Source: Ectocarpus siliculosus
Lineage: Eukaryota; Sar; Phaeophyceae; Ectocarpales; Ectocarpaceae
Reading direction: 5' to 3'
Assembly (NCBI GenBank): GCA_000310025.1
Contig: FN649728.1
Coordinates: 3,783,965 to 3,847,964, forward strand
Length of the DNA stretch: 64,000 bases
This document shows positions 10,629 through 63,662 of the stretch, piece after piece. The first letter of the stretch is position 1, and every line of letters begins with the position of its first letter. The notes beneath the pieces were generated by a model that made no database searches, had not been told where the DNA came from, and was given only the letters and a program-made list of their open reading frames with translations. A program made the position numbers and the translations under genes.

Positions 10629-12167
10629 GGCCCTGTCCTGTCGAGCTGTCGCTGAGCTGTCGGAGGGTCGAGGGTTCGGGGTTCGGGGTTCGGGAGGTTT
10701 GAGGTTCGAAGGTTCCATTCGTCAAAAGGTGTGGTTCCCATCTAGAACCGTCCAGCGCAATAAACGGGGACACGAGCTGCTGTCCCCGTGCTGCCTGGTG
10801 CTGACCTGTTGCCAACACTCCAACACAACACAACACACGCCAGGCGGCTTCTCCCGAGCTCAGCACCCCAACGGCGCCAGGTGAAAACAACCTCTTGGTG
10901 GCAATAAGCTATCGAGCTCACGTGCAACACTGCTGTTTCCCATCTATTGTCACGCTGGGTCGTGTGGGAGAGGTCACCAACTTGCTTGCCAGCTTTCAAA
11001 TATCCGTTGCTTGTGCTCCAGCCCGGATTTGGTACCAGTTCCACAACAACAAAGCCTCGGAAAGATCAGCGTTTCTACAAATAAACAGACATATATATGC
11101 CCATTCTGTACGAAACTGGAGCCTAATCTTGCGGAACCCTGTCTCTGCCGTTTGACCCTGAACACGTTCTTAGTTTTTACCTGTTCAACGGACCAAAGGG
11201 TGGTGTCTGCGACAGGCCACTACCAATTCACACGAGAATCTGGCCTTTCAAGGATGCCTACGTTACCCAAGTGCGTTACTCTGGTGCTGCTGGCGTGCTT
11301 CGCGCGTGGCTTCAAGGGTTGTACGAAGGCAACGATAACAACAGGTGCGCGTATCGACACCAGTTCTTCTAAATTGCGGCAGCAGTTTGGTAGAGGTTGG
11401 GGTGGCACTGAGAGAGGTTGTCGTTTCGGAATAAATTTACTGGGCGTACTTGCTGGAAAACAGCAGTACCAGCAGCAGTAGCATGTGCACTGATCTCGCC
11501 TCTCAGTAAGAATGAACACCAATAGGTTTCCCACACAGCACACACTTTTTTCCCATCTCTGCCTGCGCATCTTAAACGCCCCAAAAGCCTCCCATCTTAT
11601 ACCGACAAGTTCACGAAGATTGTCTGTCGGCAAATGATTTGCACCCAATCAATCTAGCCCACGCTTATGCAGCTTCACACCTACAACAAGGCGGGCTTCA
11701 GCTTCCACCGGCACCTATCGTGAACTTCGAGCTTAACATGCCCCTCCCTCCTCCAACGAAAAACAAATCAGTGGCAAGCGTGCTTTCGTGTCGAAAACAC
11801 GCAACACAACCAGAACACAACGCCTCCTTTCAATATCTGGTTATGGACAACCTCAGAAAAGGCACTGCGATAAGCTTCCCAATACCACCGGTTTTCTCCA
11901 TCACCAAATATGCTGCCCATCGTCGAGCTATTTCATGAGGCAGCGGGTGAGCCTTGATTGCTGGAAAATATTCATATTATGCACGAAGTACGGGATGTCA
12001 TTGGTAAGCATTGGAAACGACTTTCGAAGGATTCCCCTCCGATTCCACGACAAAGAAGTAAGGCAATATTTTCAACAAACACTACTTTTTCGAATGTTTC
12101 CTTCAGGCGCAACGTAGTGCCAAGGCAATGTGAGCACACGAGAGCAGTATGACGAGACCGGGGGATC
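10629..12167. other. Intergenic, upstream of the PPR gene
   Basis: Contains a GGTTCGGGGTTCGGG repeat run near 10671-10700 and CAACA repeats near 10821-10840. No coding region is supported. The promoter of the downstream single-exon gene should lie in the last few hundred bases, but no TATA-like element stands out. Confidence 0.35.
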
Positions 12168-13097
12168 ATGAGTATGGCGAGGACGGCGCCCCCCCCTATT
12201 CCGTTCTCGTGCTTCTTAGCAATCATGCTCCACGCCCACGGCCCACCGCGCTCCCTGTTCTTCAACGGCATGTACGGACCATTGCCGACCACGTTCACAG
12301 GTCGCGCTTCTTTGCGAAGCTTGTTCGCTGTGCGTGTGATCTCCAGCATCACTTCAAAATCGCGCGAGTCTTCTCGGATATACGCCTGGAATAAAGCTGC
12401 CGTAGAGAGGCGACCGAAGGTAAAGGTGGCCACCAAGACAGCTCGGAGAGATGAGGAGGAAGGGGTTGCTGGTGATTTGAAGTCCAGCCTGAAAACGACG
12501 CTGCACAAAGCTGGGAAGAAGAGGGATTGGAGGGTAGCACTGCAAACGCTCGATGAAATAAAACTGTCCCCAGGACTTGTCGACGCGATGTCGTACAACA
12601 TTGCCATCACGGCTTGTGGAGGAAGGCAGCTGGAGAAGGCTTTGGATCTTTTGGGTGAGATGGAAGAAGAGGGGGTGACTCCCAACATCTTTATTTTCAA
12701 CTCGGCTATAAAGGCGTGCGGCGATGCAGACGAGTACGAAAAGGCTCTTACTCTTCTGGACGAGGTTTTGGGACGGGGATTATCCCCTAATGTCATCACC
12801 TACAATGCAGCTATCGGTGCGTGTGCAAAATGTGGTCGGTGGCAGAAGGCTCTGGACCTCCTCGGCGAAATGTCGGAGAGGCAAGTGGTTGCTGACGTCA
12901 CAACCTACAACGCCGTCATCGAAGCGTTTGCGGGTGGGGATCAATGGGAGAAGGCCTTGGACCTCCTGAGCGACATGTCGGAGCGGGGAGTGGTCCCCAA
13001 CGCTAGAACCCGCACTTTAGCAATCTCTGCTTGTGGAAAGCAGGGTAGCGGAAGAAGGCTTTGGGGATATTTGGGCCAGCTGAAGAAAAAGCTTTAG
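12168..13097 (+). CDS. Pentatricopeptide-repeat (PPR) protein
   Basis: A single exon of 309 codons. After a hydrophobic then basic N-terminus (FSCFLAIMLHAHG, later RRPKVKVATKTARR), which could be an organelle-targeting peptide, come 35-residue PPR units: a weak one from about residue 122, then four clear ones from about 140 to 280 with the 'YN..I.AC....W.KALDLL.EM.....PN' pattern. PPR proteins bind organellar RNA in a sequence-specific way, so a role in mitochondrial or plastid RNA processing is expected. The fifth unit is disturbed. The current frame ends GSGRRLWGYLGQLKKKL, while a +1 shift reads RKKALGIF and runs on to a stop near 13123, so a small indel may have shortened the gene. ATG 12168 is the first good start, and no intron is needed. 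Solitary on its strand here. Confidence 0.82.
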   Translation: MSMARTAPPPIPFSCFLAIMLHAHGPPRSLFFNGMYGPLPTTFTGRASLRSLFAVRVISSITSKSRESSRIYAWNKAAVERRPKVKVATKTARRDEEEGVAGDLKSSLKTTLHKAGKKRDWRVALQTLDEIKLSPGLVDAMSYNIAITACGGRQLEKALDLLGEMEEEGVTPNIFIFNSAIKACGDADEYEKALTLLDEVLGRGLSPNVITYNAAIGACAKCGRWQKALDLLGEMSERQVVADVTTYNAVIEAFAGGDQWEKALDLLSDMSERGVVPNARTRTLAISACGKQGSGRRLWGYLGQLKKKL

Positions 13098-16655: not shown

Positions 16656-17467
16656 CTGGTCCGCGGGGTGGTGCTGTTCTTCGACCGACCCTGCCGCCTC
16701 TACGGAAGCAAGATGCCCATCCTGGGAACATTTTATTGCGATCATGATATGGGAACCGTGAGGAAAAACGGCGGCGGTGGAAGCATCGGTACCAAACTTA
16801 GCGTGGTGTTTCAGACCCGGTGTCACAAAGTGGGGGAGAAGGGCGCCAAGGGACGGTAGACAGGTACATTTCTCACGTTTTTGAGGCATAATGGTGTAGA
16901 CCAAGACCTCACTGCAAATGTCACCACAGCTCTGAACTATCCCATCGCGTCACCAAGGTAGAATAGCTGTGTATGCAACATGCAGCGACTCCCCCCGATC
17001 CCATGCTGGTGGGACTATACCCGAAAGCGTCTGGTCGAACAACGACTCTGTGCAACATGCGGCGTTAAGCTTGTTTTCAACCATGGTCATACCTCAACCA
17101 CGCGCTATCATTCCCGTATCGCGCGAGGCCATGGTGTACCGTACCTGCTCGCTGGCATGGACCTGTGCTACCGCGCCCTGGGGCATCTCCTCCACCGAAG
17201 CTCGAGCTTCGCGTTTCGCCGGGATCGAGCCGAAAGCAGCAGCAGTAGCTACCTCGGCGCCAGTCTGAACGACAGGATCTTTGTCGCAGCCATGCTGGCC
17301 CGGCACCGCCCCCGACTTCATGCCTGTCGATTCGTTCAGTTCCGGCTCACCCTCCGACGGCTGGCGTTCGAAGATCTGGACAAGGGGGGCAGGGCGCTTA
17401 TCGGGAATAGGCACGGCCCAGATGCCGTGCGAAGTGCTGACCGGCTCTTCCTTGTTCTTGTCATCAC
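16656..17467 (-). CDS. Candidate extra C-terminal exons of the receptor kinase
   Basis: Two minus-strand exons can be added to the receptor kinase without breaking frame: 17145-17467 (CCCCTAG acceptor, CAG/GTACGG donor, 107 codons) and 16656-16721 (TTCCCAG acceptor, CAG/GTGGGG donor, 22 codons). They would be used if the last kinase exon splices at 17705 (TATG/GTGCAG, phase 1) and does not read to its TGA at 17691. The 1+2 base join restores GGT, and the frame then runs GDDKNKEEPVSTSHG onward. The predicted peptide is hydrophilic, with no domain. The alternative is that this is the 3' UTR or intergenic DNA, so only transcript data can settle it. Confidence 0.38.
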
Positions 17468-17690: not shown

Positions 17691-20600
17691 TCAAAACCCT
17701 GCACCATACCCATGTGTTGCGTGTACGTCTCTCCACCAGGCCTTTGACTTCCGACAGTCGTAAACATCGCTGCCAAAACACACCTCGTCCCTTGCGATGG
17801 TCTCCAAGAACTCCACGATCTCCTCGAAAGTCGGTCTCATTACCGGAATCGGCGCCCAGCACTGTTCGATCAAAATCCTCAACGTCTACGTTGTTTGGTG
17901 GGTAGAGGGGCGGGGGGGACAAGAAAAATAGTCATGATCATTGATAGGTCGGATGTGCTGCTCGCCGGTGTTCATCACGGACAGTGCACGGCAGCAAATC
18001 TGGACTGCAATGGCTAGGTAGCCGATGCGGAGCAAGTACGCTAGTGATTGGACATTTGCCTCGCATTTATCCAACATCTCGAAAAGATCGTGGTCAAGAA
18101 CCGCCCAAAAGGGAGGACTGCGGTGGTCATCGACGTTCACATCCATTGTCACCAGTATTTATCGTTTCTGTGTTGTTCGTAGTGCCCCAAATGACCACAG
18201 ACAAATGACCCTGTGACATTTGACAGCCGGATTGGCCTGCCCTCGCAGAGCGGGTCACCCCCGGTGGAAAGGCGCGAAAAAAAACTAGCTTAAAATGAGC
18301 GACACTTGAGGCACCAGCACCGTCCGAAAATTTACCTACAAAAGCGTGTAAGGAATGACAGATCCTTTTTTTTTTCCGCTCAAAGAACTCTTTTCCGCTC
18401 TTGGCTCTGTTAGACCGCGACATCCAGAACAAGTGGAGAGGTGGCTTGGTCCGGCGTTTTGAAAGCGAAAACTGCGGAGGAGGTGAATCCAACCCGCAGC
18501 TTAGACTTCATACAAAAGAAGGCGACACAACAGCGTAAGAACTCTGTTGGCTGTCTGTTGTGGTTGTTGTTGTCGGTGTCGGCAGCTACACACCTGAAAC
18601 ACTTCGGATGGTAGCGTCGGCCTGAGGCCTTCGTTCACGATCTGGTTGGTGATGGCCATGTGTGTCAGGCCCCCTCCCACCCACCCCACGCCCGCGGGGG
18701 GGGTCGACCCTCTTCGAACGGCCTACTCGAGATAAGGGGAAGAAGACGCAGAGAAAAAACAGAACAAACGGATGGACGGCTCCTCTCTTTATTTTTCCAT
18801 GCGAGCTTCCAGCAGAAGGAAGCAACGAACATGCGGAAGGCCTAGTGTTCAATTCTCTCGCTCTCCACCGGCCAACAAAGCAACGTCTCGTAACGCACAT
18901 CAGGCCACGCTTGTCATCAAATTCCCACCAACACCGCCGTAACCTGCAAGGCTTCCAAAACAGCACTTGGCTGTAGCCTACTCCATCAAGTGTGGCGTAG
19001 TACCGATGCAGTCGCCGGGGTTTATCAAGTGCCGTTCGAGTATTGCAGTTCCAACCTCTTCGGCAAAGACGGTCACGACGTCATCCTTGAGCTGTAGCAT
19101 CGCCAAGAGCACCACCGCAAAGCTGTAAATGTCGCAACGCTCGTCGTAGCAATCTCCTCGGACGATCTCCGGCGCGATGTACAACAGCGTCCCAACCTGG
19201 TAACACGCACCGGAACAAAATATAGCCCGTCAGGTGCATCACCGCGACCGCACGCATGTGGTGGGAAAGTTTTCTGCGCCGTCGGGGAACTGGCGGCACA
19301 GGAAGGAAAAGCCAAGGCGGCATGGACTCATACTTTCCAGGAAGTGCCGTGCCGCAGAACGTCTTACAGAATTCCCACCCTCTGATGACCCCGGAGAGAG
19401 GCGTACAGAAGATCGCCGGCTATGTCTACAAGACTTGTCTTGGAGTCAAACGGACGTGTAGGCTCAAGAAGCAAACGTGGCTCTGACGGCATAGTCTACG
19501 GGACCAAATCAACGATTCGTGAACCGTGTGTCGGTTTGCCTGACACGTACGAGTGAAGCCGAGAGGGCGTCAGCGAGATTTACATTCTGTATCTTGTTCT
19601 GGCGCTAAAGCAGACCAGCGGAAAAAATATACGGGCCGGTTCATACGTACTGGCGATATCTCCCGTATGCGGCAACGCTTACTTTTTTGCTTCTTGAGCA
19701 ACCTTTATGCGAAGCCAGTAACTTCGAAAAAAGAAAAGCGCCGCTGGTAAGGTGGTCTTGTCGTAGGGTGCAACGCCAGCTTGGTCGTAAGCGGCCAACC
19801 TGCTGTGGTGGTATACACTCGTACGCCAACACTACTATCGCGGTGATTCATGGCGGTAAACTCATCGATCGGCGCTCTGATTGTGGTCTCCACGTTTTCC
19901 ATCAGCAAACAACAACAGGCACCATCCCCAAGGAGTGGTGTTTCACAGAAAGAATCAATTTCCAACCTGAGTGTCGCGCGGATCATTTCCCCTTCCAGTG
20001 GCTGCACCAAAGTCCGAGATTTTCACCCGGTAGTCGTGAGTCACCAGCAGGTTCTGCGGCTTCAGGTCCCGGTGGATGATGCAGTCGTGCATCGAGTTGG
20101 ACAGCTCGTTGAAGTGCCTGCGCAAGAGCAAAAGCAGATGGACCGGCAGCTCAGCCAGTGCGACCACAACGGCAGCAGCAGCAGCAGCAGCAGCAGCAGG
20201 GACATTGCTCATGGGACGAAGCGAGGCCACCCCTTCTCATCTGTGCCAGCAACGGGGAGACGCCAAGCGCACAAAGCTCCCCCGGAGATCAATTCAAAAG
20301 AGAAACTACCATTGAGTGGTCTCAACATTGCTCCTCTCAAACACGGAATAGCCTATAGGGGGGTGGGGGCCGGTGGAGAGAGAAAAACGAGAAGGTTGTC
20401 CTCTCCGAACGAACGGACTGAAACCGACGAGAGAAGACAATGGACGGAGAACAGACGGTGAACACGTTTCATCGGGAACAAGGGGGCGGATATTTTGAAG
20501 CAGAACAGCAGCAGTTTCACACACTCCGGAGTGGAGTCAAGCCAATATCAAATCAACGGTTATCGGTAAATCAAGCCAGAAATGGGAACCAGATCAACCG

Positions 20601-23600
20601 CGTGCAGCGCGACTCTTCTGCTGGCCAAGCGTGTGTTCGAAGAAGCGTATCTAGCCTTTACTCTGACTTCAGACGGATTTCGTCGACAGAGTCCGGTAGC
20701 CATGCATGCTGCACGTTTGCAAAACGTAATATGTACCCGAAATAGATCGGTTTTGGCTGCAAGGAGTTGACAATGCCTCCCTGCCTGCACGTGTGACGAG
20801 CGTTGTCGCTATCACAGCAAGAAACTGGACCTGACAAGAGCTACTATTTACAACAAACTTACGTGAAGCGATGCAGGTACGCCATGCCATTGGCGATGTC
20901 GAGGCACATGCGAAACTTATGCCGCGGCCACGACAACACCGGGGTTTCTTCCAGGACCTTGGCCAAGTTTCCCCTCGAGACGTACTCCAGCTGGGCAACG
21001 GAAGAAAATGACGGATAAAACTATTGATAACGAATTCTCACTTGCACACGTCCAAGGTCGGCCACGCCCTGTGTAGGGTTGTTGCAACGCCGTGGAGGTA
21101 CTTGTTGAAAATCTGTGCATAAGGTTTTTTTCTCGAGGCTCGCGATTCTCGCGGAGTGTGCGTTGTCGGGATGTCTTCTCGCGTGGATATTGGCCAGGTT
21201 CTCGCTCGGTACACGCCCCGATACCAACATCTCAGACAATTCGAAAGAATGCGGGATAGAGGGAAGAGACACGATGAAAACAAGAGATCAAACAAAAAAA
21301 CGTGTCAACACAACGGCCTGGGTTCGCGGCGCTTCGGCGGGGTGGTGGCGACCTCTGATACATATTAAAGAGTAGTTTAACACGTGCATTTGCACGCCTT
21401 TACACACATATGCACGCGCGTAGCACGATATGACGGTGTCAAACAGGATTCGTGACACGCAAAACCTTCACATCACGTGCCAGGTGTCCTACAGGTTAAA
21501 CCGACGTGAAAACGAAGAACAGAGGACTATGAAACAGCGTGAAAGACGTGGCATACGAGATCTGAAAGCAGATCTCCGAAAACTCACGATCATCATCAGC
21601 CTCGGGCCGCGCCACGTCGCTCTCAGCAAGCGCACGATGTTCGGGTGGTTGAAATCCTTCGAGGAGGCGAGCAACATAGCGGGGAGAGGGTGTGTGCGGC
21701 GTCAAGCGGTGGTTGTAGCAATCCCAACAGGAGATTAGGGTCAATTTTCTTGGTGTTAATAATGGTACTGTTTTGCCCCTTGATCTCGTACCCCGTGGAA
21801 GCAGCGTCACCGGCGACCGCACTCCGCGTAGAGAATACCGTTGACCACCTTGTAACGCACGTTCGCAAACGACAGCAATTGCTTGCTTCGATCACAGCTC
21901 CACCAAGCCGCGGGGAACAAACAGTGCTCTCAATACATGGCCTCGAGAGGTAAGTCACACAAACCCCCGCCTTTACCCTACTTTTCTTAACACCGAAAAG
22001 GTGAGTATTTAGAGCCATAGAACACGACTCTACATACATGACCAGAACGGTCCGGACCGCCTGTGCTGGCGACGTGGGAAAGCAACCCTTTTCGCGCGCG
22101 GGGGCGGGGAGCAGCGACAGTCAGAAGTACATCGACAACTCTTGGTGCATGGAACAGAGTCCTCGACTCGCTGAGTTAGGTTCAAGAACCCCAGAAAACC
22201 TAAATTCACGCAAACAAACGTGCCAAGCTATGACGACCACTCTCCTTGATACAATTTTCGATACACAACACAAATGGTTGAAAGAGACAAGGAAACTCCG
22301 TCCACCACAACTGGGATCAATGACGAGAGCAAGTGCAAATCAAAAAGAACACCACCTCGACCTGTTGCAGGGGCATGTTTGCTTGCAATTGTTTAAGTAT
22401 CCGGTGCACATATCTGGTTTGAAGGCCACAATTAAACGTTACCACCTAAATTACCTTCATGATGAGAACCTCGAACCAGAAGTGCTTGAGGGTCGAACGT
22501 CGAGCGTCCCGCGGGATTTTCACCGCTACCTTGGCCGCACCTTCCAAACAAGCAAAGAGTTCAAGAGGTTGCCAGGGAAACATGCCAACACAATGTTCGT
22601 CGTAGCTGTGGATGGGTGGTGCGACGAATCTGTGTTTCGTACGATTCGAGAGCTTCGATGTGGCTCGTCAACCACAACCTCTCCAGTCCTCCATTCCAAA
22701 AAATAACCCGTAGTCCTATTTTCGGCTGATTTTCACGCAGTACATCAATTTCCCAGAATTCGATTGCGTCATACCCATGTTCCAAACGAAACGCATCGGT
22801 TCATTCGTTTGAGAGGGGTCCATGAAAGGTTGCTGATTGATGTTCCCTAGGAAGTGAATTGGAACACACACATCTGGCAGTAACATAACACGATAACCAA
22901 TATCAACTTGGTGGATATAGCCTAGGCTTCCGGGGAGAGGGATTGAAACCCCGGGGGTGGGCGCAAACGCCTGCTGCACCTGTTCCGACAACTCCCATCG
23001 TGTCGAAGAGGCGCCCTTGTCGGACTTGCGCAAAAGTCCCGGAGCCGATTATCTCTCCCACGCCCACGAGGCTGGCATCCACCTCCACCTGTTTGTAGGT
23101 GCAGTGGCAGACCGCGCGCGCAAATTGGCTGAGTGACACTTTCATACGAGACCAAGAAAATCACATTTTTCGTTGTTCATGTCTCGAATTCTTGGTGTGG
23201 TCATTTCATGGCCCGCTTCGGATTGATTCATCCCCGATCTGCCTCGATTTTGATCCAACTATAGAAGGGAACAGCCTTGTTGAGTGTGAGCCAAAACACA
23301 AACTCAAACGGTATGGTCCGATTTCGATTTGAATGGAGGCCTGACATTGATCCACAATTGTTTGTTTTTCCCTCTCCGCAACCAGAACAAACGAGCGCGG
23401 TAACACACACGCAGGGCGAGGACGTGCTTTCACGACGAGGACGTACTTTCACAACAAGATCGTCAAGCACGAAACCTGCGTGCACACAAGATTCTAAGCT
23501 CCAAACCCCGCATCTTGTCCGAAACTAACCTCCTCTAGAGCCTCCCTCGCACGAAAGCTGATCTTCTCGAGCTCTTCCTGCACCATCTGAAGCTGCGGTG

Positions 23601-24143
23601 CGCTCTGCAAGGCGAGCGACGCGGTCTTCCGCACCGCGGCGGGAGAAATCGCGGCCCCGCCCACCCAATGATGAGGAACATCCCAACCCCCGCGATCCCC
23701 CCCTCCCCCCGCCTCGTCTGGCCTCGATGTTCCTGTCCTTTGGCCTTCCAGTGCAGCTCTCCCTCCTCCATCTGCCATAGTTGGCGTTTCGCTCTCCGAG
23801 CTTGGTGCCTGGGCCGGAGCAGGAGAAGAGGACTCCGACCATGCACGGGACCCAACCGCCCTAGTTCTAGCCGCGATGCCGCTACCAATGTTGCTGTCCC
23901 CACTACAGCCACCGCTGCCCAACCACCGCTCTGGATTTTTCGCCGCGGCCTCCGCGGCGGCAGCAGTGGCGGCTGCTGCTATTGCCACTGCCGTCAGTGC
24001 CGCCACCGACCCCTCCGGCACTGCGCCTCCCACCTCCGCCGTCCTGATAGGATCGCCTGCGAAATTCGGATGAAAACTCCCCGCCGAAGCCGCACTGCCC
24101 GGAGTACCAGAGCCAGCTACTCTTCGGGTTGAGCTCTCACTAC

Positions 24144-24177
<34 letters not shown>

Positions 24178-27100
24178 CATCCGGTTGTCCTCTCCTTCCA
24201 CGCTTCTCGTTTCCCCGGTGCTTAACCCGGTTGGCGTCAGCCTGCTCGTGTCAGCGATCACCCCCGCCGCCACCGTACCCGCGGTCGCAAGCGCCGTCAC
24301 TGGAGAATCGCCGATAACCGCCGTCTGCTTCTGCCGCGAAACGGGAGGTTCTACCACGGAGGGGGGCGAGGAGGGGGGGGGTAACCCGGGGCGCCGCACT
24401 CTTGTGGTGATTTTATCGCGGGCCGCTGCTGCCGCCAACGTGAGCGCCACGGCGAGCAAGGCTGCTAGCGCCAGCGTCAGCAGCAGGCACGTGAATGGAG
24501 ACTTGGATAAGCAGTCGAGCGCAGCTAGAAGACCGTTTGCGCCATCGTTCCGGTTGTTTCCACAACCGATGCCGACGCTCACACAGCCGGCGCCGCCACA
24601 GCTGCTGACGGTGCTGTCACAAGGATAATGATCATCCTTGTCCAGCGTGGACTGTGCACGCGACGGTGGTCTTAGCCCGCCGCCGTCGGGCAATGCCCCG
24701 GGACAAGCAGTCACTCCCGACAGCGAGGCGGGCCATTGCATGTGTCGTAGAAGCTGATGTGCCGTGATCCGCCGTTCGTTGTTGTTGTTGTTTATGGCAG
24801 CATTGATGTCGTTGGTGTTGATGTCATGGGCAAACATCATCGTTGTCCGTGCAGCCGTCGTTAAGTAGCACGGATTTTTGGCGGTTGTCAGCCGCCAAGG
24901 ATTTTGAGTTGTTCAAGTAATCGCAAGACGCAGGAGGTCGCCACCCCGCCAGCGTGGTGAACACAAGATACAATGGTAGATGCACGCGAACATCGTGTGA
25001 CATGTTAGGAGAAATAGAGGAGGGGGGGAGGGCGCATGATTCACAAAGGTTATCGGGATTTTTTTCCGTCGCTGTACTGCCAACACAAGTGCACCCGAGC
25101 AATCAACGAGGACCAAAACCCATTTTCCGCCATGTAGCCTGGCCGAATAAAAAATCACCGTTGCTGATTCTCATACCTAACAATTAACCTTCCAGCCTGG
25201 CAGCAACTACCAACCAGCAGCGTTCACTCAGTCGACCCGTTCGGCCAAGCAACACGCTTTTCCTTGACCACTCGAACCAATCCCACTCTTCCATGGACGA
25301 CCCTTGAGACGCCCAAGCTGTTCAACAACAAAAAAACTCTCCAACGGCGCACCCCCATCCCGTCCACAACCAGGCCCGGAGATCCCTCACCTGTACTGTC
25401 TCAGAAGCGGAGTCGTACCTCGCCGCCTCCTTCCCCGAAACGTAAGAAGCGCCGTCCGCGGTGACACCCTCCATCAGCCGGAACGAAACGTCCATCCCCA
25501 TGCGGTTACCGAGATCGTCCATCTCGACCTGTTTCACGCCAAGTGACCAGCAGTGGAAGCAAAGGATGGGCGTCGAAAAGAGTAAGGGAGCCGACAACGG
25601 GATGCCGCTACGTGCTGTCGTGGCGAAAGGAGAGGTGCATGCAGCGCACGTGTGGAGTGGCCATCAGCAACCCCGGGCTGGTGGCTAAAAGGGCGGGTGC
25701 GCTGCGAACACTAATCACGCTCCCGGCTACAATCGACACGATATCAACACTTCGGGTCTCGTGATGTGCTGCTTCCGCGATGTACACGCAACGGAGAGCT
25801 CGACAAGTTGCGGTAAGGCATGGGAATAAGACGAAAGAGACACGGAGGTCCGTCGAAAAATGAAACACACCATTCGCGGGAAAACTTCACCAGCATGCAC
25901 GCAGCTCCTTAGTAATTCTGCGCACGGATGATCCGGTAGGTGGGTGTCGCTCGAGGTATATTTTCTTCTCCGGTGATTTCTTCTCTCCTACACCATGGCT
26001 TTCTAGGACCGGGAGAGGGCGGTGTTTCGAGTGGTGTGATTTTTCCCTTCACAAAGGGCTTGTGACGACCTGAGCTGCGTTCCGAAACAACGGAACCTGG
26101 CAGCATACAAGATTGCCCTGCACCGAACACAAACAAAAAGCTGAGAATGACTCTCGAATCCTGACGACGGGGGGGGGGGGTGTCCGTGCGTGGAACGAAG
26201 TTGTCCAGCCGAGCCGCCATCCTACGCCCAGAGAGAGTTGCACAAGCGGGGTACTGCAGCCTCCACTATGCACAGTCTAGACGTTGCGAAACTTTCGCGT
26301 CGCGGCAACCCGCAATCAGCCACCCCTGCGGGGCGCGACGCGCCGCACGTCACACGACAGGTGTACCCCTCGGAAAAAAAAAACGCACCTTGCCAGATAG
26401 ACCCTCGAACCCAACGCCGGCTGCCAGCCCCGCCCATCCGCCGTCTCCGACCCTCCCAACTCTTCTGCCCGCCGCGGCGAGGACGCGCATGCCCAGCTCG
26501 ACGGCGTCAAACATCAGCGCGGTCGCCGTGAGGAGCCCCCGAGGGACGCCATCGTCAGGACTAGCACGGTAGTCTCCGGCTGCTCCCGGGCAAACCCTGC
26601 CGCCTCCCCCGCCCCAGCGATTCGTCTCGTCGCCGTCGCCGTCGCCGTCGCCGCCCTCTTCGACCGCTCCTACCGCTGCTCCGCCACCACGTCCGTCAGA
26701 GCGGTGGCCAGAGGTATCACAGCAGGGTGACCACGGAGCAGAACAAGCCCCGCCATCGGGGCTGCCGCCGGCCCCGCAAGCAGCACGTGAAGGCGGTGTC
26801 CCCCGCGGGCCCGAGGGACCAGAGAAAGGGACCACCGGAGACGCATCTCCCGCCGGCGGCGGGAAAAAATCCGACGCAAGGCCCTCGCGTCCGAGAGCGA
26901 CGGCGGGGTCCATGCACGCTTCCACGCTCGTGCGGGAGGTCGGCATCAGCGCCCAGTCTATCGACAGGGCGCCGGACATCGAGGAGAGGGCCAGAGCGTC
27001 TCGTCCGTCGTCTCTGCCCGCGGGGGTGTTTCGTCGTGTAGAACACACCGGGTGGTGAGGAGGATGCCGGACAACAGAGCGGCAAGGACAGAGAGGTTGT

Positions 27101-30100
27101 GGTATCACGAGGGTGGAGATGGTACAAGAAATGGCGAAAAAGCAGCGCCAACGAGAGGACGATTTTTGCCGCCGAGGGAGATTAAGACAAGGCGACCGAC
27201 GTCTTCGCGCTCCCAGTTCTAGCCTCTTCTTCGGAAACGAAGTACCCGTTACCGTGAAGAGCTACGTAAAAAAGACGGTTCTATTTAGTCGGAGCCTCCG
27301 TTACGAAAGGCAATCACACCAACCGAGGCGAAAGAGCATCAAGGGGTCAAAGGCGACAAGTTCATCAACTGCAGTTGACCAGGATATAGAAGACACTTCA
27401 CAGCGAAAGAAGCGGTGACTGCGACAAAATGCCTGCGTTGTAACTCTGTCTATCTTGTCGAGATCTTTCCTAAAACATTTTATCATTTGATTGTCGCCTT
27501 CTCACCATCGTGGAGCAATCGAGCTTTCAAAGTTGGTCCAGGGGGCGTGGTAACTTATCCAACCTACTGAATGCAGCGCGTGAACGCGAGAGCATGCGCA
27601 CGCTGAGGGCCGTGTCTACCCTGCTGGTGTGAGCTACCGAACTACGCACCTCCCGCAAGCGGCCGCGCTGGCATGGCATGTCGGATCACGCGCTGCGGAC
27701 AGGAGAAGCCACGCTCGCTCCGACTTGAGGCCCCGCATCGCCGCGAACGTCATAACCTTTTCGTGGATGTTGTTGGTGGTGGTGTTGGCGGTATGGGCAA
27801 TGGCATCAGAGGGACGTTGTATTCCAAGTTAGTGTGGAACCACCCCTTTGCGGCTGCGGAAGGAGCCACGCGGGGTCGGCAAGCCGCACTTAGTTAGTTA
27901 CCCCCCTAAGGCTACGGAAGGAGTTCGGGGGTTTCAACCCGCACTATACGGCGGGCTCCTTGACCGAGTCTGTCGACGATGGTGGCGGGGCAAACAGAAA
28001 CGCGCGCGGAGGTGTGGATGGAGTAACCATACGTGATGAAAGCGCGTGCCAGTTCGTCCCATCTATTCTGGCGCCAGTCTACACACCTCTCGGCGTGTAT
28101 TTCTGATGCATCAGTCGGGGTCACACAGGCAGAAGGTCCCCCAAGAGCTCTATTTTCTTTTTTTCTTTTTTTCGTGAACCAAACACAATCGTGTACAAAC
28201 AGTGTGGTGTGGTCGCTGCTTGAGCCAAGTTCTCAGCAGGGCCAATCCCCGTCCCCCAACCCCCCCTCCCACGCCCCTGTTTGGTTCACCTGGCGGTAGT
28301 CGGCGCACTCGCCCAGAACGATCACCACGCTGTCTCTCCCCGCTCGCACCGCCTCCACCGCTTTGCGAACCCCCTTGGCATCCCCCGCGCCCGCCTTGCA
28401 AGATTCGCCGCCGTCGAACCCGGCGTACACGCCCACGGAGCCCCCTTGCCCCTCCAGCACCCGCCTCATCTTTGTGGCGACGAAACGGCACGGAAGATTG
28501 GTTTGTTCTTGGTGGACAGAGCTGTGCCGTGTCGTTGCACTCCGACACGAAACAAAGTGAAAAAGCAATGGATTGAAAACAGAAGCGGGGGGTGTTTGCA
28601 TTTGTGTACGTATCATTCTCATGTTTTTCGTGCTTCGGCACATCGTTCCCTCGCGGCAGCAAGACATTTTTTCATACTCGCTTCTCAGGGAGACGCAGGG
28701 GGCTCGTCGGTACAACACCGCGCATGCCCGAGGACCGTCAGCCATCCGCGGCCAGTGCAATCGACGTTCAAAGTCGCTGCGACAAAGATCCATGTGGAAC
28801 ATGTGCATATGGGCGTGAACCGGGGGTCTGTTGGCAGTTGAAGCCCGCGCGTGGGGAGGAGGAGGGGGGGCGATTCGGACGCAGGTTTTCCGCACCTGCT
28901 GCGCCAGAGATGTATAGGCGAGCCCCCTTAACGGCCCTTCGGCAAATAGGATGCTTGTTACCACCGCTTCCCCCGAGCCTTGCCGCTTGTAGAGCGAGCC
29001 CACCGCCAAGGAGAATTCGTCGCTCGCACCCACCACGCGCAGAAATGTCGGGTGCAGCAACTGCATCGGTGTGGCGTTTTCACGAACGTTGCCCAATCAA
29101 GAAAGGGTCATGTCGGGTTACAAGGCATACGGCGGAGGCGCGTCGGCCACGGGTAAAACTTGACTTTGCCTTCTTGGGGTTATTGATGTCAGCGATGATG
29201 CCGTTACAGCGTTGCAGCTGCTCTAGAGGACGACTCTGGCCGGCGCTTCTACCGGGGTAATCCTCAAAACTGTAAAAGACTGGTGGTAGCGGCGGCGGCG
29301 GCGGCGGTGATTATGGATAGCGGCGGTTTCGTGGTGCCGATGGCCATATGGTAGTTCCGCCGCAGTCGACGATGTGTTACGTCAACCATCTACGGTGTTT
29401 TTGATACGCAAAACCTCGTCTGTTGAGCGCACCGGGGGGCAAGCATTTCCACCCGAACCATTCCGCACACAGCGTCAATCCAACAGAAAATCCCTCTCAA
29501 CACCTCATGGGGCTCAACGTGCATGTATGTGTGCGTCTGGTGTCCGCATCCTTTTACCTTGTCCGACAAATGGGCCGCAGAACACGCCCACGACACTACC
29601 GGCACCCCCCTCCTGGCCGCCAACGCGCTCGCTGCCGCCGCCGAGGAGCAGCAGGCCGGGCCGACTATCAGGTCCACGCCGTACGTGTCCAACAGCACTT
29701 CCGTCGCATCGTACGCCTGGGTAGGTGGGTAGGTACGGCGAGGTTCCCCGAAAACATTGATTTATCATCCTTTTTCGAATGGCAATCTTGGTCGGCACCA
29801 TTTTTTTCTTCCAAACTTTCGAACGACATCCATGGCAAAAACAGCCGCACACACTTTCCGTAAGATAGCTTCGGCCACCTATAATAGTAGGCCCGACGAA
29901 AAGGGGACTACAGGGCCCACGAGGAGGGGGGCCGAATCCTATTAATCTTCTCTCCCTCTCCGGCCCCCTTCCAAGTTAACATTAAACGGGTCAGTGGTAG
30001 TGCACAAGGTGCTCGGGGTGTGATACGGCCGGTCGGTGGTCCACGGGGAGAGATGGCTTCCCCCGACACTATAATAGGCTAAGGTGCTTTTTGCTTGAAA

Positions 30101-30286
30101 AAGGGCGCGTTCAGAGGCCGCTCACCTTCTGGGCGTCGCACGCGGAGTCGTGCCACACCCACTCCACCCTGTCCCCCCTTGCGAAAACGCCGCCCGAGCC
30201 CCCGAAACCTCTGGCTGCCGCCTGTACGGCCGCTTGCGCCACCGCCGGGTACAGCGGAGATCCCAGCCCCCAGTCCACAAGAAACC
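17691..30286 (-). CDS. Receptor kinase: ANF-receptor-like ectodomain, TM, kinase
   Basis: Sixteen exons (minus): 30126-30286, 29558-29716, 28896-29060, 28290-28469, 27650-27756, 26389-27013, 25391-25528, 23530-24753, 22980-23088, 22455-22540, 21588-21656, 20863-20990, 19967-20117, 19004-19196, 18594-18673, 17691-17885. All joins keep frame, giving 1,255 residues. An N-terminal exon with the signal peptide is missing, because the first exon begins mid-codon. Residues 1-511 match a type-1 periplasmic-binding (ANF receptor) fold: VDLIVGPACCSSAAA, HPTFLRVVGASDEF, SVVIVLGECADYRQ, and FEGLSGK followed by VEMDDLGNRMG. A Cys-rich stalk precedes one TM helix at about 596-622 (TCLLLTLALAALLAVALT). A 300-residue Pro/Ala/Ser juxtamembrane follows. 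The kinase spans about 930-1225: GSGTFAQV, VAVK (Lys 963), helix-C Glu 979, HRDLKPQN (Asp 1067), DFG (1085), APE (1108-1110), RPTF. All catalytic residues are present. The likely role is ligand sensing at the plasma membrane with cytoplasmic phosphorylation. Ligand unknown. Confidence 0.88.
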
Positions 30287-31967
30287 CTGATGGTGTGAAC
30301 CGACGCCATGTGCTGTTATGGCATGGGACGGGATATCGGAAAAAAATATTGTGCCCGCCCTCCCCCTCCCCTTCGAACCGGTCCATGAAATAAGGCGTTC
30401 ACGGGGTATGCCTCACTCCCGCCGGAACTGGACTGCCGTACAGTCTAATACCGGCCGGTAGGGCTCGCTTAGTTATAGTTACCCCTACTTTTTCCAGCAA
30501 GATTTTTTTAGAGTTGACATGCGAAACAATTTTTGGCATAAATTACAGAGTGCCGAAGGCATCGAAAACCGAAAACTGATTCACCAACAGTCGGGGGGCA
30601 ATGGCGGCTATTCTCGTAAACGGCGCGAAATTGACCCGAAACGCCACATAGTTGGCCCGAACAGATGAACAGTTATCCCGCAGAAACATGTTCTTCTCCC
30701 GCTCTGAGTTTGCTGTGCTGACTCCCTAATCACCGCCTGTCTGTGCCGGCATGCTCACCCCGATCAGTTCTCCAATCAAATGTGACGGGATTGGCGGCGA
30801 TGCCCTGATTGGATGGAGGAAAACCTCGTGTCACTACAAATAAACCGCTAAACTTGGACCATGTGTACGGGCGAGTAACGTAGGCGTGAAAGCGGCGTAC
30901 AGATAGCGCCCGCACATATGGTGCTTAAGTTCTTATGTTCGATGCAAGTTGAGCATGAAGTTCTCGAGTGCGGGCGCTGTCTGTATCAAAAAAATACCGT
31001 CTGTGGGTCCTGTGCGCGCTCATCATCCTAGTATTACAGTAGATACCACACCTGCACTCACATGAAAGTCGAAAACATGAAAATATGAAAATATTATTTA
31101 CACGTCTATCTATGGAGGCTACCGCAGTTGTCGAGGACACAAGCAACGACATGGAACAGGGAGCAGGAGTTCTGAGCCCACTACATGTTTGCTGTTTCTT
31201 GTTTGGAAGGATGACTGCCGGCCCGAGCCTTCTACTGCTGCTGAAGACAGGCTCGTGTTGCAGTCTCGCTTTCAATCTCTCTGTCCGTCTCTCCCTCTCT
31301 TTGTGTGTGTTTCTTCTGTCTCTGCCTTTCTCCGTACCTCACCTATCTTGACTGTTGCCCCCTCACATGCATGCCTCACCACCAATCCGCTCACCAGCAG
31401 AATCGACCACCGCAAACCCATGCTTGCGGCGCCGCTGCTCCTTCTTGTCTGTCACGGCCGAACGGACAAGGAGATACAGCAGCTCTTTAGACCTTCCTGA
31501 AGTGAACAGTAAAGACCCCCCCCCCCCCGTTGCTTGTCAGCAATTTGCGCCCCAAGTGCTTTCCGGGTCGTGGGTGCAGCAACAGCTGCGCAACACCTAC
31601 ACCAGCTGTCGACGAAGCAAGTAGATCTAGCTGCAGCCAGCTGCAGCAAACAACAACAATCGATGACATATCTGACACATCGCTGGACTTTTTTGCTGAG
31701 GTTTCGCCGCATTCTTGATGACCGATAGACCGAACAGTCAATGCGGATGCCTCCAGAACTCTTACACACTGACTGAGACAATAAACAGAGGGCACGACCA
31801 CACGCCTTCGGGGAAAGAGAGAGCATTAGCTCGGCCCATGAAGGTTGCGGAAGCCTTGTTGCCCACTTCTTACGTGTGATACTTCTATGCAACGATGCAT
31901 ACATGTCTGAATATATGTGGTTTTGGTGGCGGGGGTTTGTTTGCAGGTCCAGGTCTGTCTTGCGCCG

Positions 31968-37951: not shown

Positions 37952-40900
37952 TAGAATGAACATCGCACAGAGAGAGTCTGCACTAGACACACGAGTAATC
38001 AACATCTACAGCAGTACAAGGTGGCGGCCAGCCATCTCCTGTGATTTACCAGTGCATCGCCAGCAATGATGTGTTGGTGCAAACAATATTTTATCTTCGA
38101 CTCTTGGAGTGGCTTGCAGAAGCACCGCGCAGCACATACCGCTACGCGACGAAGCTGGTGTCAAACGTCATGCTGCAGAGAGAACAAGAGCTTGCTGTTG
38201 AATGACGTTATTCCCCTGCTCGCTGCGGTGCCGCTCCGGCTGTGCACACTGCAGAGCTTCGTATGTGCGAATCCTACGCCGACCAGCATGCAAGAGAAGG
38301 GTCGGCAGGCACCCTCCCTGCTGTGGTTTGGACATCCCCTTTGTGCAGGGTGTGCGCTCCCTCACGTGACGATCCTTCAGCAAGCACGGCAGGCTAGGCC
38401 AATGGCGACGCGATGTTAAGGGGGGCGGGCACGAAATCTAACTCAACAAATATTTTGTGCATGAACTGCTCTGTTTAGTGGTGCTTCGGGTGTTTGGCGG
38501 TTCGTTAGTTTCCGACCACGACGACGAGCGTAGGGGGGGGTGTACTCATAGTCGTGCATGACAATAGTCGTTCGACTATTGACCTCGCATCCCTACAAAG
38601 CCGGGACGGAGCACGCCGGGTTCTCACCGGACCAGGCTCTCACATCACCAAGCGCGAAGCGCCGTGAGGTATTCGGCGAGTCGCATGAAGGGTGTTCGGC
38701 ATCCTGCTAAGGGTATTCGGCATCTTGTGCTTACTTCCTTGCGTACGGATGACAGCTGCGTATGACTTAATTTATTTTTTCTGGTGCTTTCACTTCCAGA
38801 GACAGTTATAAGCACTGTGTAACTGCCTCGAGCGTGCTTGACCATTTTAACACAACGTGGTGCGATCATCCCCCTTGCGCGCGGAGTGAGGGTTCTCGAC
38901 CCCGCACAACATGATCTACTCGACCACCATTATGGTTACCGCACAAAAAAGAGGTACAAAAAAAAAACGGTAACCTGGTTGCCGAGTTCACGAAGTGAAT
39001 TGGCTTGTTTTTCAACGTCGTTGCCAAGCGACGAAAACCCAATCCCGATGGCAAACACCGAGGGTGGGGCGACAACGAGCGTAGGGGAGGGGAATTACCG
39101 TTCGGGCGAGAGACCAGAACGGTTTATTTATTCGCTAAGACACAACTACCCAAAACTGCATCGAAATGCCTCTCTTTCCCCGTCGCACCCTCACTCTGTC
39201 AGTACATTTCTCTCTCTCCCTCTCTCTCTCCCTGCTTCTCATGTTGTCATGTGTCGACACTTTCGCGTTCGTGCGCTCGACTACCGTTACGGTACGGGGT
39301 GACGGTAACGGCAACGACACGGCGCGGCGCGGCACAGTCAGCACGAGCTTGTTAGCACTTCGCTTCATGGAAGATCTTCCGAGGAAGACCATGCCGCTGG
39401 CCTTATCCACTTCCCCAAGGTAAGTTTGCATGCGCCCCAACAACGAAAAAAGAAGCCAACTACACGTACGTAGGTACTCGAACATGTGCTGTTTTTTGTG
39501 TGTCTACCGATGGTGATGCGCGTGGGTGTGTGGTCGCCACGTCTATTCTGGCTCCAGTCTACGAACACCTTTCTCTTGAACGTATCCGCCGGGGTCACAC
39601 AGGAGGAAGGAAGGTCAACATGACTTCTTTTTTTTTCGTTTGTGCTGGTTTGGTTTTTGGCCCCGTTTTTTTCTCCTGCGGTGCTTGCCTGTAGGGTTGG
39701 TTGTGGGGAAGGAGTTGGAATAGCATCGGCCGTGCTGTATGCTGGCACCCATATTTCTTCGTTTGTTTATTGGGTCCACGTGGGTGTGTTTCGTTTTTTT
39801 TTCTTTTGCGCGCTGTGGTCGGCAGCTCTCGACGATTCGCCAACAACACGAGCCACGAGCCACGAGCCACGCGATGCCAAGCCCCAGATGAACCTACCTA
39901 CTTTTTTTCACGCGCTTCCGAGTAGCCAGCATCAAAGCGCTGCGGCTGCGTTTTTCAGAAAATATGCATCAAGATACCGAGAGACTAACTGTTCCAGATA
40001 ATACCTCCATAGTCGAAGGTTGTGCTGAAAGTAATTGCACGCTGGCTTCACTCCTCCCTGGAGCGCGAGGCGGAACAAGGGGGAACCAAGGTTCAGCAGT
40101 TCCTTCGTTGTCGAAACAGATGAAAACACAAGCGTCGCGAATTGCCGGCTTGCTTGCTGCAGCAGTTGCGAGTACGTCGCCGCATCGGCGCGCGCATCAA
40201 GATCAACCAACCAAGCAAGACGACAAGAAACGATTCCTCGAGCGGCGGGTAATCTGTAATCTTGTCCCCCCGTGCTTTCTTTCTCTGGTCTGTGAACGTC
40301 ACCCTAGGAACGGGTACACAGCAGCAGTCAGCACTTTCGTTTTTTTTTGTTCATGGCGACTTGCACGCATGGTTGTGTCGAAAGCCCTTGCTCCCTACCT
40401 ACAACCATTTCTTTTCACGATCGGGGCTCTTGGAATCTTCTTCTTTGTCGTGCAATAACTACAAAATGCTAGCACCATGAATTCCCTCCCAGACTCTTAT
40501 TTTATCTGTGCAAGAAAGACTTGCTGTAGGTATGAGCCAAGAAAAATGAAACAATCAAGTTCGTCAACGCATTTGTTTCCGTTCTCATCGTGTCTCCCTT
40601 GCGATGTCTGTAATGACGGGTGGCAGGAAGACCGACGGGTTCTGGCGGCCGACATTAAGCGGACCAGGCAGGCGTACGCCATGTTCAAGCGGGAGGAGGT
40701 GATGCAGCTGGTCTCGCAGGTCCTCGAGAGGTACTGCGTGGGGCACGGCATCCGCTACAAGCAGGGCCAGAACGAGCTGATCGCTCCCTTCGTCATGCTT
40801 CAGGTACACGCACCGTATGGCACACGCTTCCTGTTGGGTAGGTGGGGAAGTTGGTCGTTCCTCACAGTACCTGCGCCGACTTGAGATGTATGGCGGAGTT

Positions 40901-43266
40901 TTCCATGTGGGTAAAAAACAATCCGATCCAAGTGCCTACCTACCGCCTTGTCAGTTCCATCAGAAACACAAAATCCAACCTGTATCTACCCCTCCCCCCC
41001 CCCCCCCCTCCCGCCCCTCCAGGACCCGCCGCTGCCCGTGCCGGTGCTGGGGTTGATGTTCGAGTCCTTCATGAGCCGGTTTGTTAGCCGCTGGTTCGTG
41101 GACGACGAGATAGAGGCCCTCTTGGTGAGCTACAGGGTGTTCCGCGTGCTGCTGTTCTACGTCGACCCCGGCCTGGCGAGAAAGCTGGACGAGGCCGACT
41201 TCGTCCCGGAGCTGTACGCCACGGCGTGGCTCATCACCCTCTTCAGCAGGTAGGCCTGCTGTCTGCCGCGGTGTGCTGCTGCTGTGCGCTTGTGTGCGAC
41301 ATTAGAAAGTGGTGGTGGTGGGGGGGGGGTTGTGAGAGGTTTTATGTGGGATGTATTGCGTGGTGGCCCATGTCGCTACATGTCTTTTGTTGGATGTACT
41401 CACAGCATTGACAGATTATTGCAACCGAGGAATGTTCCTAGAAGATGGAGCGGGGGATTTTGGGGGTTCCGCAGTTGTAATAAATTGGGGGAATGGTGGT
41501 ACCATCTTTGCCACATATTATTGTTTTCTGGGTATGCGTGTCAGCAACGGTGTTGGCCACGTGCCCTTGATTTATTCATCTTCCTTTTTCCCGGCTATCA
41601 CGCCCTGGGCTATCACGCCCGTGCCCATACTACCTATCCACCATCTATCACGCTGCCAGGCTTTCACGCCTCTAGGCTATCACGCCATCACAACAGCTAT
41701 CACAGCACCAGCGTCAACACATCAGAGCTATCACGCTCCGGAACATCATAGATGCGGCGGGTTACCACACCCGTGGGCAGTTTACTGTATTTTATCGTTG
41801 CCGGCAAACTCGCCGCGCGGTTCTTTTATTTTTGCCGTCTACAACTGCGCCGGGCGCACCAAGCCACCCAACACGCTAGCGTAATAGATCAAGAAAGTGG
41901 CTGCTGTGTCTGCGCGAATAAGACGGCTGGAGGAGATGGACGAAGACCTCCGCGGGGACCAGGGACTAGTTCCTCTCCCCACGGGGAAGACAACGGGGGG
42001 GAAGGACGAGGTTCGTTGAACCTCCCCGATGTGGACCAGCAGGGAGGAACGAAAGCAGCCGCGGATGGAGGGGAACAAGATCCAACTATCGCCCTTGTCG
42101 ACCTCCTCCGCCGGGTTGCCAACTTCGCCTCCCAGACTCCGGGACATGACGTCCGCTCAGGCACGTCTAGTTCCCAGCCCATAGAGTTGAAGCTGAGAGA
42201 GAGAGTCGAAGTACCTGAGTGGAATGATGCTTTCTTGAAGGATCGAAGTGTGACTGTCGCGTTCCGAATTTTTACGAGTTGTTTCTCAGGGTGGATGGAT
42301 GCAGAGGGTCTTGAAGAGATCATGAGAGGAGAAGAGATTCCTGTGGGTTCGTTGCACGTCGATAAGACTTGGTTGCGGCAGAGGTATGGCGATGAAAGTG
42401 TTCGAAAGGCCACGAGAGCCTGGATGTGCTTGATCACGAAAATCAACGTTCAACCTATACTAGACCAGATACTAGCTTCAGAGAGTCCACAAGCAGGGTG
42501 GAGAGTGTTTCAGTCCTACTACACTACAAACAGGACGCATGAGAGAGAAATCCTGGACGGCACTTGGAACTGCCTTAGACAGAAGCATGGAGAGACTCTG
42601 GTCGACTACTGGGGAAGGGCGAATACTGTGTGGATGCAATTACAGTCTTGTGGGGACAATCGAGAGGAGACGTTAATGTCGAGACACTTTGCACGTGGCT
42701 TGCTCCCAATGTACGACGATGTCAAAGACCGTATTCTGTTCCACCCCATGCTTTCGAGAGGTACTCTGGAAGAGACGCTGAGGCTGGTCGAGCACGAGCA
42801 GAGGATCAAACGGAGGTGTGGGGAGGGGATCGAGGACACGAGGCATGCGCCCGTCGCTGCCGGCGCAGGCCGGGACGGCGGCATGAGGAGAGCAGCTGCT
42901 GCGGGAGCGGATGGCGGACCATCTCATGAGCAGAGAGGTGCCTTCTTCTGCCAGGTTCACGGAGCGAACTCCTCCCACAACACCCCAGACTGCCATAAAC
43001 TTCGCAAGGACTTCTTGTTCCACTACAACGACTTCATGGCGTTCATTCGCGAGAGGGACGGTATGCGGGGACCAGGTTTTCCTCAGGCCGGGGGGCAAGA
43101 ATCGGGGCGCTTGTCGGGCGGATCATATCGAGAGCAGCTGCACCAACTCGACCAAGGGGCAAGCTGGGGTCGGGGCCGCCCGTTCTGTCCCCGTTCTGCA
43201 GGGCCCGACGCTGATGAGCAGCGAGTCTTCAACGAGGCCTTTAGCACCGCTACTCAGCCGGCGACT

Positions 43267-43316
<50 letters not shown>

Positions 43317-62409: not shown

Positions 62410-62887
62410 AGTTGGTTTTTCGGTGATATCTCCGCACAGAGCGAAGCATCAGCAACTGTAAAGCTATCCCCCGCGAGCTGGGTGCTTGGTCCGCCTTGTG
62501 TGGCGGCTGATCGAGACCACAGGGCAGTGGGAGGCACGGTAACTGAGGTGGCGAGAGTCAACAGCACCTTGAAAAACCCCACCGCGCCAACAACCAGCTT
62601 TGTTTGCTCTTTTTTGCCCATGCCGCAACTTTGGTTCATGGATGCTCCCTCGCCACACACTGAAACAACAGCGATGACAAAGGTATCCGCCACGAGCTAT
62701 GTGTATGGTCCGTCTTGTGTGGTGGTTGATACAGACCAGAAGGCTGACGGGCGGTCAGAGGTTGTGAGCCCGAGAGTGGTGGACAAGCGGGAAAAATGAC
62801 CCGCCGCGTCTCCAAGCATATTTTTTGTTCTTTTTCCCCGTGTTGCAACTTTGGTTCATCGATGCTCCTGTTCGTGGGTCTACGGAC
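62410..62887 (+). repeat. Tandem repeats of about 218 bp abutting a Pol fragment
   Basis: Units begin at about 62410, 62626 and 62845 with (C)AACTTTGGTTCAT.GATGC or a diverged form. Each full unit carries 'GCGAGCTGGGTGCTTGGTCC' or 'ACGAGCTATGTGTATGGTCC' in the middle and a TTGTTTGCTCTTTTT / TTTTTGTTCTTTTTC block at the end. The third unit breaks off after about 43 bp, where retrotransposon coding sequence starts. The open frame 62314-62799 across the array is probably incidental. Confidence 0.65.
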
Positions 62888-63628
62888 ATGGTTTGGATTC
62901 TTTACCCCGAAGCACCAAGCTACCCCTCCCTTTGGGCCGAAGCCACAGCTTGGGCATGCAACGCCCTGAACTGCACCTCCACCACATCCAACCCGGACAA
63001 GAAATCGCCGTACGAAATGTGGCACGGGCACCCACCTCCCCCAGAGGCGACGTACCCGTTCCTCAAACCCGCCGTATACAAGGTCAAGCGCACGCACAAG
63101 TCAGAGCCGAAAGCAAAAAAGTGTTTTTACCTCGGCCCTGGAATCAACACAAACCGTGATTGCGTGCGCATCCTGAACGAAAAACCTCAAGCGATCACCA
63201 CTCGCAACTTCACCTGGCAATCTGTGCCCGCCGCCCCGACCGCGCACCCCCAGCCGCTGCCTCCCATTGCAGAGGAGGACGAGGAGCTCACGACTGGGGA
63301 GCACGAGGGCGGAGGGGGTGCGTCATGCCACGGTGGAGGGAGGGCGGAGGGAGAACCTGAGGATGGAGGTTTCCACCTTGACACGACGGCAAACCCGGGG
63401 CCCGCGGAGCCGCCCGCGCGCGATGCGCCGGCGGCGCCGCCGGCCGCGCCCCAGGAGTCGGGCGCGGGCGACGCTGGCGATGGCGCCCCCTCGAGCAGGG
63501 AGGGCGCGAGCGTCGCCCCATCTACCACGTCGACCGGGATGGCCGATGTGGGCGGCGGCGAGGACGACCGCCGCAGCAGCAGCAGCAGCAGCAGCAGCCG
63601 CGGCGGCGGCGGCGGCAGCAGCAGCAGC

Positions 63629-63662
<34 letters not shown>

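Follow-up and report, generated by a model that had tools for sequence, protein, structure and literature searches.

Does one gene of the brown alga Ectocarpus siliculosus join an extracellular flytrap (VFT) sensor to an active protein kinase, and, if so, how does such a receptor compare with those described in animals? Complex multicellularity arose in brown algae independently of animals and plants, and, to our knowledge, most of the receptors on their cell surface are still poorly understood. The question arose from an initial annotation of a 64,000-nucleotide stretch of DNA, hereafter called the window (G000:C3:3783965-3847964; the genome searched amounts to 189,456,909 bases in 492 contigs). 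In our revised model, the minus strand of the window carries one receptor-kinase gene, at 31421-17094, with 18 exons and a product of 1402 aa. The best explanation, to which we give a probability of roughly 0.65, is that this single gene encodes a type-I membrane receptor kinase that was put together independently, out of a sensor of the periplasmic-binding type and a TKL-like kinase, and whose mode of action resembles that of animal Venus kinase receptors (VKRs). The protein would consist, in this order, of a signal peptide, an extracellular VFT, one transmembrane (TM) helix, a flexible juxtamembrane region, a short heptad helix, a TKL-like kinase, and a tail.

Gene Model

The initial annotation had joined 16 exons, from 30286 to 17691, into one frame running from ectodomain through TM helix to kinase. 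We reproduced this join exon by exon, with GT-AG at all chosen borders and with matching phases; such agreement alone is no independent proof, as the borders were chosen by eye for GT-AG and phase. Because they were picked to fit, the independent evidence comes from domain matches spanning exon junctions. In the 17-exon, 1282-aa version of the model, Pfam matches above curated cut-offs run over exon junctions and the frame stays open, which confirms the single frame. The extent of the gene had to be revised, although the 30286-17691 join itself holds: a first exon at 31421-31343 had been missed, and probably also a last one at 17467-17094.

Exon 1 (31343-31421, minus strand like all the others; aa 1-27) codes for MGLRWSILLVSGLVVRHACEGATVKI, and its phase-1 join to exon 2 yields ATVKIGFLVDWG. 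It provides the Met and the signal peptide, followed by the first beta strand, ATVKIG. With exon 1 in place, the Peripla_BP_6 alignment starts at profile position 1 (aa 23), and that of the best PDB match, 4gnr, starts at aa 20. Between 30320 and 34500, 97 ATG..GT stretches have a fitting phase and size; 20 of the 97 begin with a hydrophobic segment, and a single one, exon 1, also ends in a strand pattern, which had been fixed only after exon 1 had been found. The codon score of exon 1 (0.06) is uninformative. A separate observation concerns intron 2, where 29878-30078, flanked by CCTATAATAGT and ACTATAATAGG, is perhaps a small inverted-repeat element.

Flytrap Ectodomain

The VFT spans about aa 23-560. 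Lobe 1 is entered in exon 2 (30126-30286; aa 27-80); exon 3 (29558-29716; aa 81-133) holds the pocket region with GPACCSS and WACSAAHLSDK, and the VFT continues through exons 4 (28896-29060; aa 134-188), 5 (28290-28469; aa 189-248), and 6 (27650-27756; aa 249-284), where its Pfam-supported part ends. The second VFT half, with a Gly/Pro/Asp-rich insert, is encoded by exon 7 (26389-27013; aa 284-492), whose codon score is 50.4 across 208 codons; exon 8 (25391-25528; aa 493-538) presumably completes the domain.

A type-1 periplasmic sensor had been predicted to emerge from a domain search, and in the first VFT half it did. On the 1282-aa protein, ANF_receptor (PF01094) matches aa 63-266 with an E-value of 1.2e-15 (57.9 bits, cut-off 25.4), covering only profile positions 21-211 of 353, and Peripla_BP_6 matches aa 23-272 above its cut-off (E 2.4e-12). 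PDB matches to the first ectodomain half include 4gnr, a bacterial branched-chain amino-acid binding protein (1.1e-6), GABA-B1 (3.3e-4), and NPR-C (0.0017); a bacterial branched-chain family of NCBIfam reaches 32 bits, far under its cut-off of 477. For the second VFT half, neither of two fragments matched any Pfam family, and the five PDB rows returned include no VFT. As judged from these searches, the domain support is that of the first flytrap half, and the C-terminal half is unsupported by itself. No N-glycosylation sequon occurs in aa 1-626.

A short ungapped alignment with mGluR1, weak as it is (E 0.034-0.04), shows LSDK and FLRVV conserved and places Cys103 at the position of the carboxylate-binding Ser of class C receptors, with Ser104 adjoining. 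We take Cys103 to correspond to mGluR1 Ser165 and Ser126 to Thr188. Since Cys103 stands in place of the key class C Ser, an amino-acid ligand is uncertain. One could go further and propose that the flytrap no longer binds any small molecule and acts as a dimerization or partner module, in the manner of a co-receptor, as the replacement of the class C Ser by Cys103 and the Gly/Pro/Asp-rich insert of the second VFT half would allow. We hold this to be distinctly unlikely, as Ser104 lies right beside Cys103, Ser126 aligns with mGluR1 Thr188, and the kinase is intact.

Junction between Exons 8 and 9

Exon 9 (23530-24753; aa 539-946) carries the Cys stalk, the TM helix, the juxtamembrane region, and the heptad helix; its alternative start is 24651. 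The junction that ties it to the flytrap is the weakest point of the model, and the codon scores there slightly favour a separate gene start. Indeed, the stretch from an in-frame Met at 24840 to the acceptor at 24753 has a codon score of +6.5 over 29 codons, and the next 45 codons score only 0.6. The locus might, then, consist of two same-strand neighbours, the first encoding a secreted flytrap protein in exons 1-8 and the second, from Met 24840 on, a TM kinase with a short ectodomain, a proposal to which the choice of two acceptors for exon 9, 24753 or 24651, adds some weight. We nevertheless consider it unlikely: exon 8 ends in CAG/gtgagg, a donor that shares the required phase 0 with both acceptors; the codons upstream of the acceptor are repeat-like and rich in AAC/ATC, a composition that can pass for coding sequence; and exons 1-8 by themselves would lack a membrane anchor and would reach a stop codon only beyond the donor.

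Stalk, Transmembrane Helix, and Juxtamembrane Region

In the single-gene model, the flytrap is followed by a stalk with Cys residues at 583, 590, 595, 602, and 619 and by the best hydrophobic stretch of the protein, aa 627-645 (Kyte-Doolittle 2.65), which by hydropathy is the sole strong helix and agrees with the single TM helix initially annotated. The sequence RDKITTRVRR can be read directly after it, and this positive side suggests an orientation towards the inside, in line with a type-I topology. From the TM helix to about aa 925 extends a low-complexity juxtamembrane region. It includes a weaker, Ala-rich stretch at aa 787-805 (1.90), which may be a second TM helix and would in that case place the kinase outside. 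A heptad-patterned helix can then be read at aa 926-947 (L926, V929, L933, I936, A940, A943, V947).

Kinase Domain

The kinase begins with its glycine loop in exon 10 (22980-23088; aa 947-983), followed by VAVK with Lys990 and by Glu1006 in exon 11 (22455-22540; aa 983-1011), by exons 12 (21588-21656; aa 1012-1034) and 13 (20863-20990; aa 1035-1077), by HRDLKPQN and DFG in exon 14 (19967-20117; aa 1077-1127), by GTLLYIAPE in exon 15 (19004-19196; aa 1128-1192), and by exon 16 (18594-18673; aa 1192-1218), and it ends in exon 17 (17705-17885; aa 1219-1279). PK_Tyr_Ser-Thr matches aa 957-1245 above its cut-off (E 2.2e-42) over profile positions 4-258 of 258. The four motifs VAVK, HRDLKPQN, DFG, and APE, previously annotated as intact, are all present, as are GSGTFAQV and Glu1006. 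With its catalytic motifs intact, the kinase should be active, and we predict it to be catalytically competent.

KPxN and GTxxYxAPE are signatures of Ser/Thr kinases. The best 17 of 2610 PDB matches are to CTR1, TAK1, MAP3K12, Roco4, and MLT, which we take to be TKL kinases, FGFR1 being 18th. By these best PDB matches we class the kinase as TKL-like, and its signatures are those of a Ser/Thr enzyme.

C-Terminal End

The initial annotation let the frame stop shortly after the kinase. The stop codon exists, at 17693-17691, and is reached when the last intron is left unspliced, but it probably lies in that intron, the 3' end then being the probable exon 18 (17094-17467; aa 1279-1402 and stop), which codes for a C-terminal tail. 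A phase-1 donor at 17704 fits the acceptor before 17467; GTs in phase 1 also occur at 17779 and 17755. Downstream of 17467, the ORF reaches 0.25 bits per codon, a value above those of all 62 intronic ORFs of at least 50 codons (0.04 or less), and its best coding segment (32.7 bits) begins two bases past the acceptor. The codon model behind these scores was trained on one gene and two kinase ORFs, with the introns of the same gene as background; it is not strictly specific, as two antisense ORFs within the gene total 35.0 and 30.2 bits. We consider a gene end at the stop at 17691 less likely than the 18-exon model. The tail after the kinase matches no Pfam family at E-values up to 0.1, and, as had been claimed, no cyclase follows the kinase: Guanylate_cyc matches neither the protein nor the 124-residue tail.

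Intron 16 contains a minus-strand ORF, 17886-18158, that looks protein-like (EANVQSLAYLLRIGYLAIAVQICCRALSVMN) and has a codon score close to zero; its portion at 18000-18158 has no Pfam match. As an additional exon, this ORF (18158-17886) was rejected, with a codon score of about 0.05 and no fitting donor found by eye.

Other Features of the Window

An LTR retrotransposon candidate occupies 41388-47080. Its identical 486-bp repeats (41388-41873 and 46595-47080), TG..CA ends, and 5-bp TCTTT duplication point to a recent insertion; within it, 41752-44154 gives a gag-like match under cut-off. Just upstream of this element lie plus-strand RabGAP-TBC exons at 40459-41250, with 40915-41250 above the cut-off (E 6.7e-7) and 40459-40881 below it (0.0012). 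On the plus strand as well, an ORF at 12153-13094 contains pentatricopeptide (PPR) repeats (PPR_2, E 1.3e-42), and another, at 62768-64000, has the top coding score in the window (104 bits) and resembles a copia-type polyprotein by eye, with no match among Pfam families at E-values up to 0.1. Rfam and ARAGORN gave no matches.

Relatives in the Genome and Elsewhere

Searched over the genome at E-values up to 10, PF01094 found one exon, belonging to the receptor gene itself (two candidates scored), and Peripla_BP_6 found the same single exon. PF01094 thus recognized just one exon of the receptor gene, so a search of this kind may overlook further ANF genes. The ectodomain gave seven matches, six being its own exons and the seventh a spurious place: this would-be paralogue at G000:C17 (E 0.0095) has two in-frame stops, reads like an LRR gene, and was rejected. 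A search with the kinase returned 22 matches, 8 of them in the gene itself, the best other one reaching 45% over 74 residues; with the heptad helix and the kinase N-lobe, all three matches were the receptor gene. Elsewhere in the genome there are seven 7tm_3 matches at E-values up to 1 (one above cut-off) and three Guanylate_cyc matches, on contigs C24 and C14. A tblastn search with the ectodomain and the kinase against eight regions, including the surroundings of five of the seven 7tm_3 matches, returned five rows, none convincing (best E 0.82), so that no VFT relative was seen there, and no relative was confirmed in viral_contigs or genome_contigs, two collections that do not hold eukaryotes as such.

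EsV-1-7 repeats, for their part, are abundant in the genome (150 matches scored of 880 candidates) and were found in none of the 14 genomes used as controls, the named ones of which are all prokaryotic. The excerpts of PMC7457493 describe the EsV-1-7 family as expanded in brown algae and patchy across eukaryotes; by this marker, a brown algal genome is likely, short of proof. RuBisCO, searched for as a further clue to the affiliation of the organism, gave no match.

Proposed Mode of Action

What goes beyond the anatomy is inferred from VKRs and class C receptors. A small extracellular molecule would close the flytrap within a receptor dimer; closure would rearrange the TM segments and the heptad helices; and the paired kinases would then phosphorylate each other and, subsequently, Ser/Thr residues of downstream proteins. 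VKRs offer a precedent for both the mechanism and the dimers (excerpts of PMC4026697). We would also propose, tentatively and with rather less than even confidence, a brown-alga-specific family of flytrap receptor Ser/Thr kinases, built from such a sensor and a TKL-like kinase in parallel to the VKRs and sensing small molecules through a pocket rewired around Cys103.

Prior Literature and Implications

We found no description of a flytrap receptor kinase in algae in the literature searched, which leaves most subscription journals outside; an algal one may be described or annotated elsewhere. The excerpts of PMC12716839, PMC12223298, and PMC10445921 mention no flytrap receptor kinase. As far as our searches reach, the flytrap-kinase design has precedent, and its TKL-like Ser/Thr version in a brown alga is unreported. 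If the locus yields one transcript, the direct fusion of a flytrap to a kinase arose at least twice, each time with a kinase of another class, and its product would be a candidate brown algal receptor for small diffusible molecules, amenable to expression and testing. If the family is true, it would be a further class of brown algal receptors beside the LRR receptor kinases.

Comparison with Known Systems

The initial annotation compared the protein with natriuretic-peptide receptor cyclases and GABA-B/glutamate receptors, a set from which the closest design, that of the VKRs, was omitted. According to excerpts of PMC3703292 and PMC4026697, invertebrate VKRs combine a PF01094 ectodomain, one TM helix, and an active tyrosine kinase, and the choanoflagellate proteins UTK12 (Monosiga) and RTKS (Salpingoeca) have a similar layout. 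The algal receptor shares with VKRs the PF01094-type flytrap, the single TM helix, intact kinase motifs, and the absence of a cyclase. It differs in its TKL-like kinase with Ser/Thr signatures, where VKRs have an insulin-receptor-like tyrosine kinase, in its long low-complexity juxtamembrane region, and in its non-animal lineage; it also carries Cys103 where VKRs have the ligand-binding Ser (the mGluR1 Ser165 position). That Ser is required for arginine in VKRs, as stated in part of PMC4026697, and some VKRs also go without it, as stated in part of PMC3703292. The annotated claim of a separate, non-animal receptor-kinase design is therefore partly supported: flytrap-driven phosphorylation as such was already known from VKRs, and the differences lie in kinase class and lineage.

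Could the algal protein nonetheless be a true VKR, by common descent or by transfer from an animal? Its domain order is that of VKRs as given in the excerpts of PMC3703292. The tyrosine-kinase motifs of VKRs are, in the excerpts of PMC4026697, HRDxAxRN, PVRWMxPE, and a YY pair, whereas the algal kinase has HRDLKPQN and GTLLYIAPE, and its activation segment DFGAATGRGNDPRDTQVGTLLYIAPE contains no YY pair. Moreover, the closest PDB kinases (the best 17 of 2610 matches) are TKL and not of the insulin-receptor type, and the gene has many introns, as do its surroundings; we reject this origin as extremely improbable.

Receptor guanylyl cyclases of the natriuretic-peptide type share the ANF_receptor ectodomain, the TM helix, and the kinase fold, but their kinase domain is a pseudokinase, whereas the algal receptor has intact HRD and DFG and no cyclase. 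Class C GPCRs of the GABA-B/mGluR type share the PBP1/VFT ectodomain, as reflected in the PDB match to GABA-B1, and have seven TM helices where the algal receptor has one TM helix and a kinase; Pfam found no 7tm_3 in it.

Closer in lineage, the brown algal genome paper reportedly lists LRR and beta-propeller receptor kinases. The TM TKL kinases of stramenopiles (the LRR receptor kinases of Ectocarpus and oomycetes and the oomycete subfamilies) share with our receptor the signal peptide, the TM helix, and the TKL-like kinase, and differ in having LRRs or undefined ectodomains in place of a flytrap; none of the eight Pfam rows of the algal receptor is an LRR family. Excerpts of the literature report transmembrane TKL kinases and TKL subfamilies in oomycetes (PMC3019232, with no occurrence of an ANF or periplasmic domain in the text covered), two LRR receptor kinases in Ectocarpus (PMC3268121; also PMC8307928), and, in diatoms, candidate class C GPCRs that carry PBP1 domains (PMC3727952). 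Taken together, the oomycete and Ectocarpus kinases and the diatom GPCRs indicate that the lineage possesses both components. As the algal protein lacks the kinase signatures of VKRs, we read it as a receptor Ser/Thr kinase that resembles VKRs and was built separately from them.
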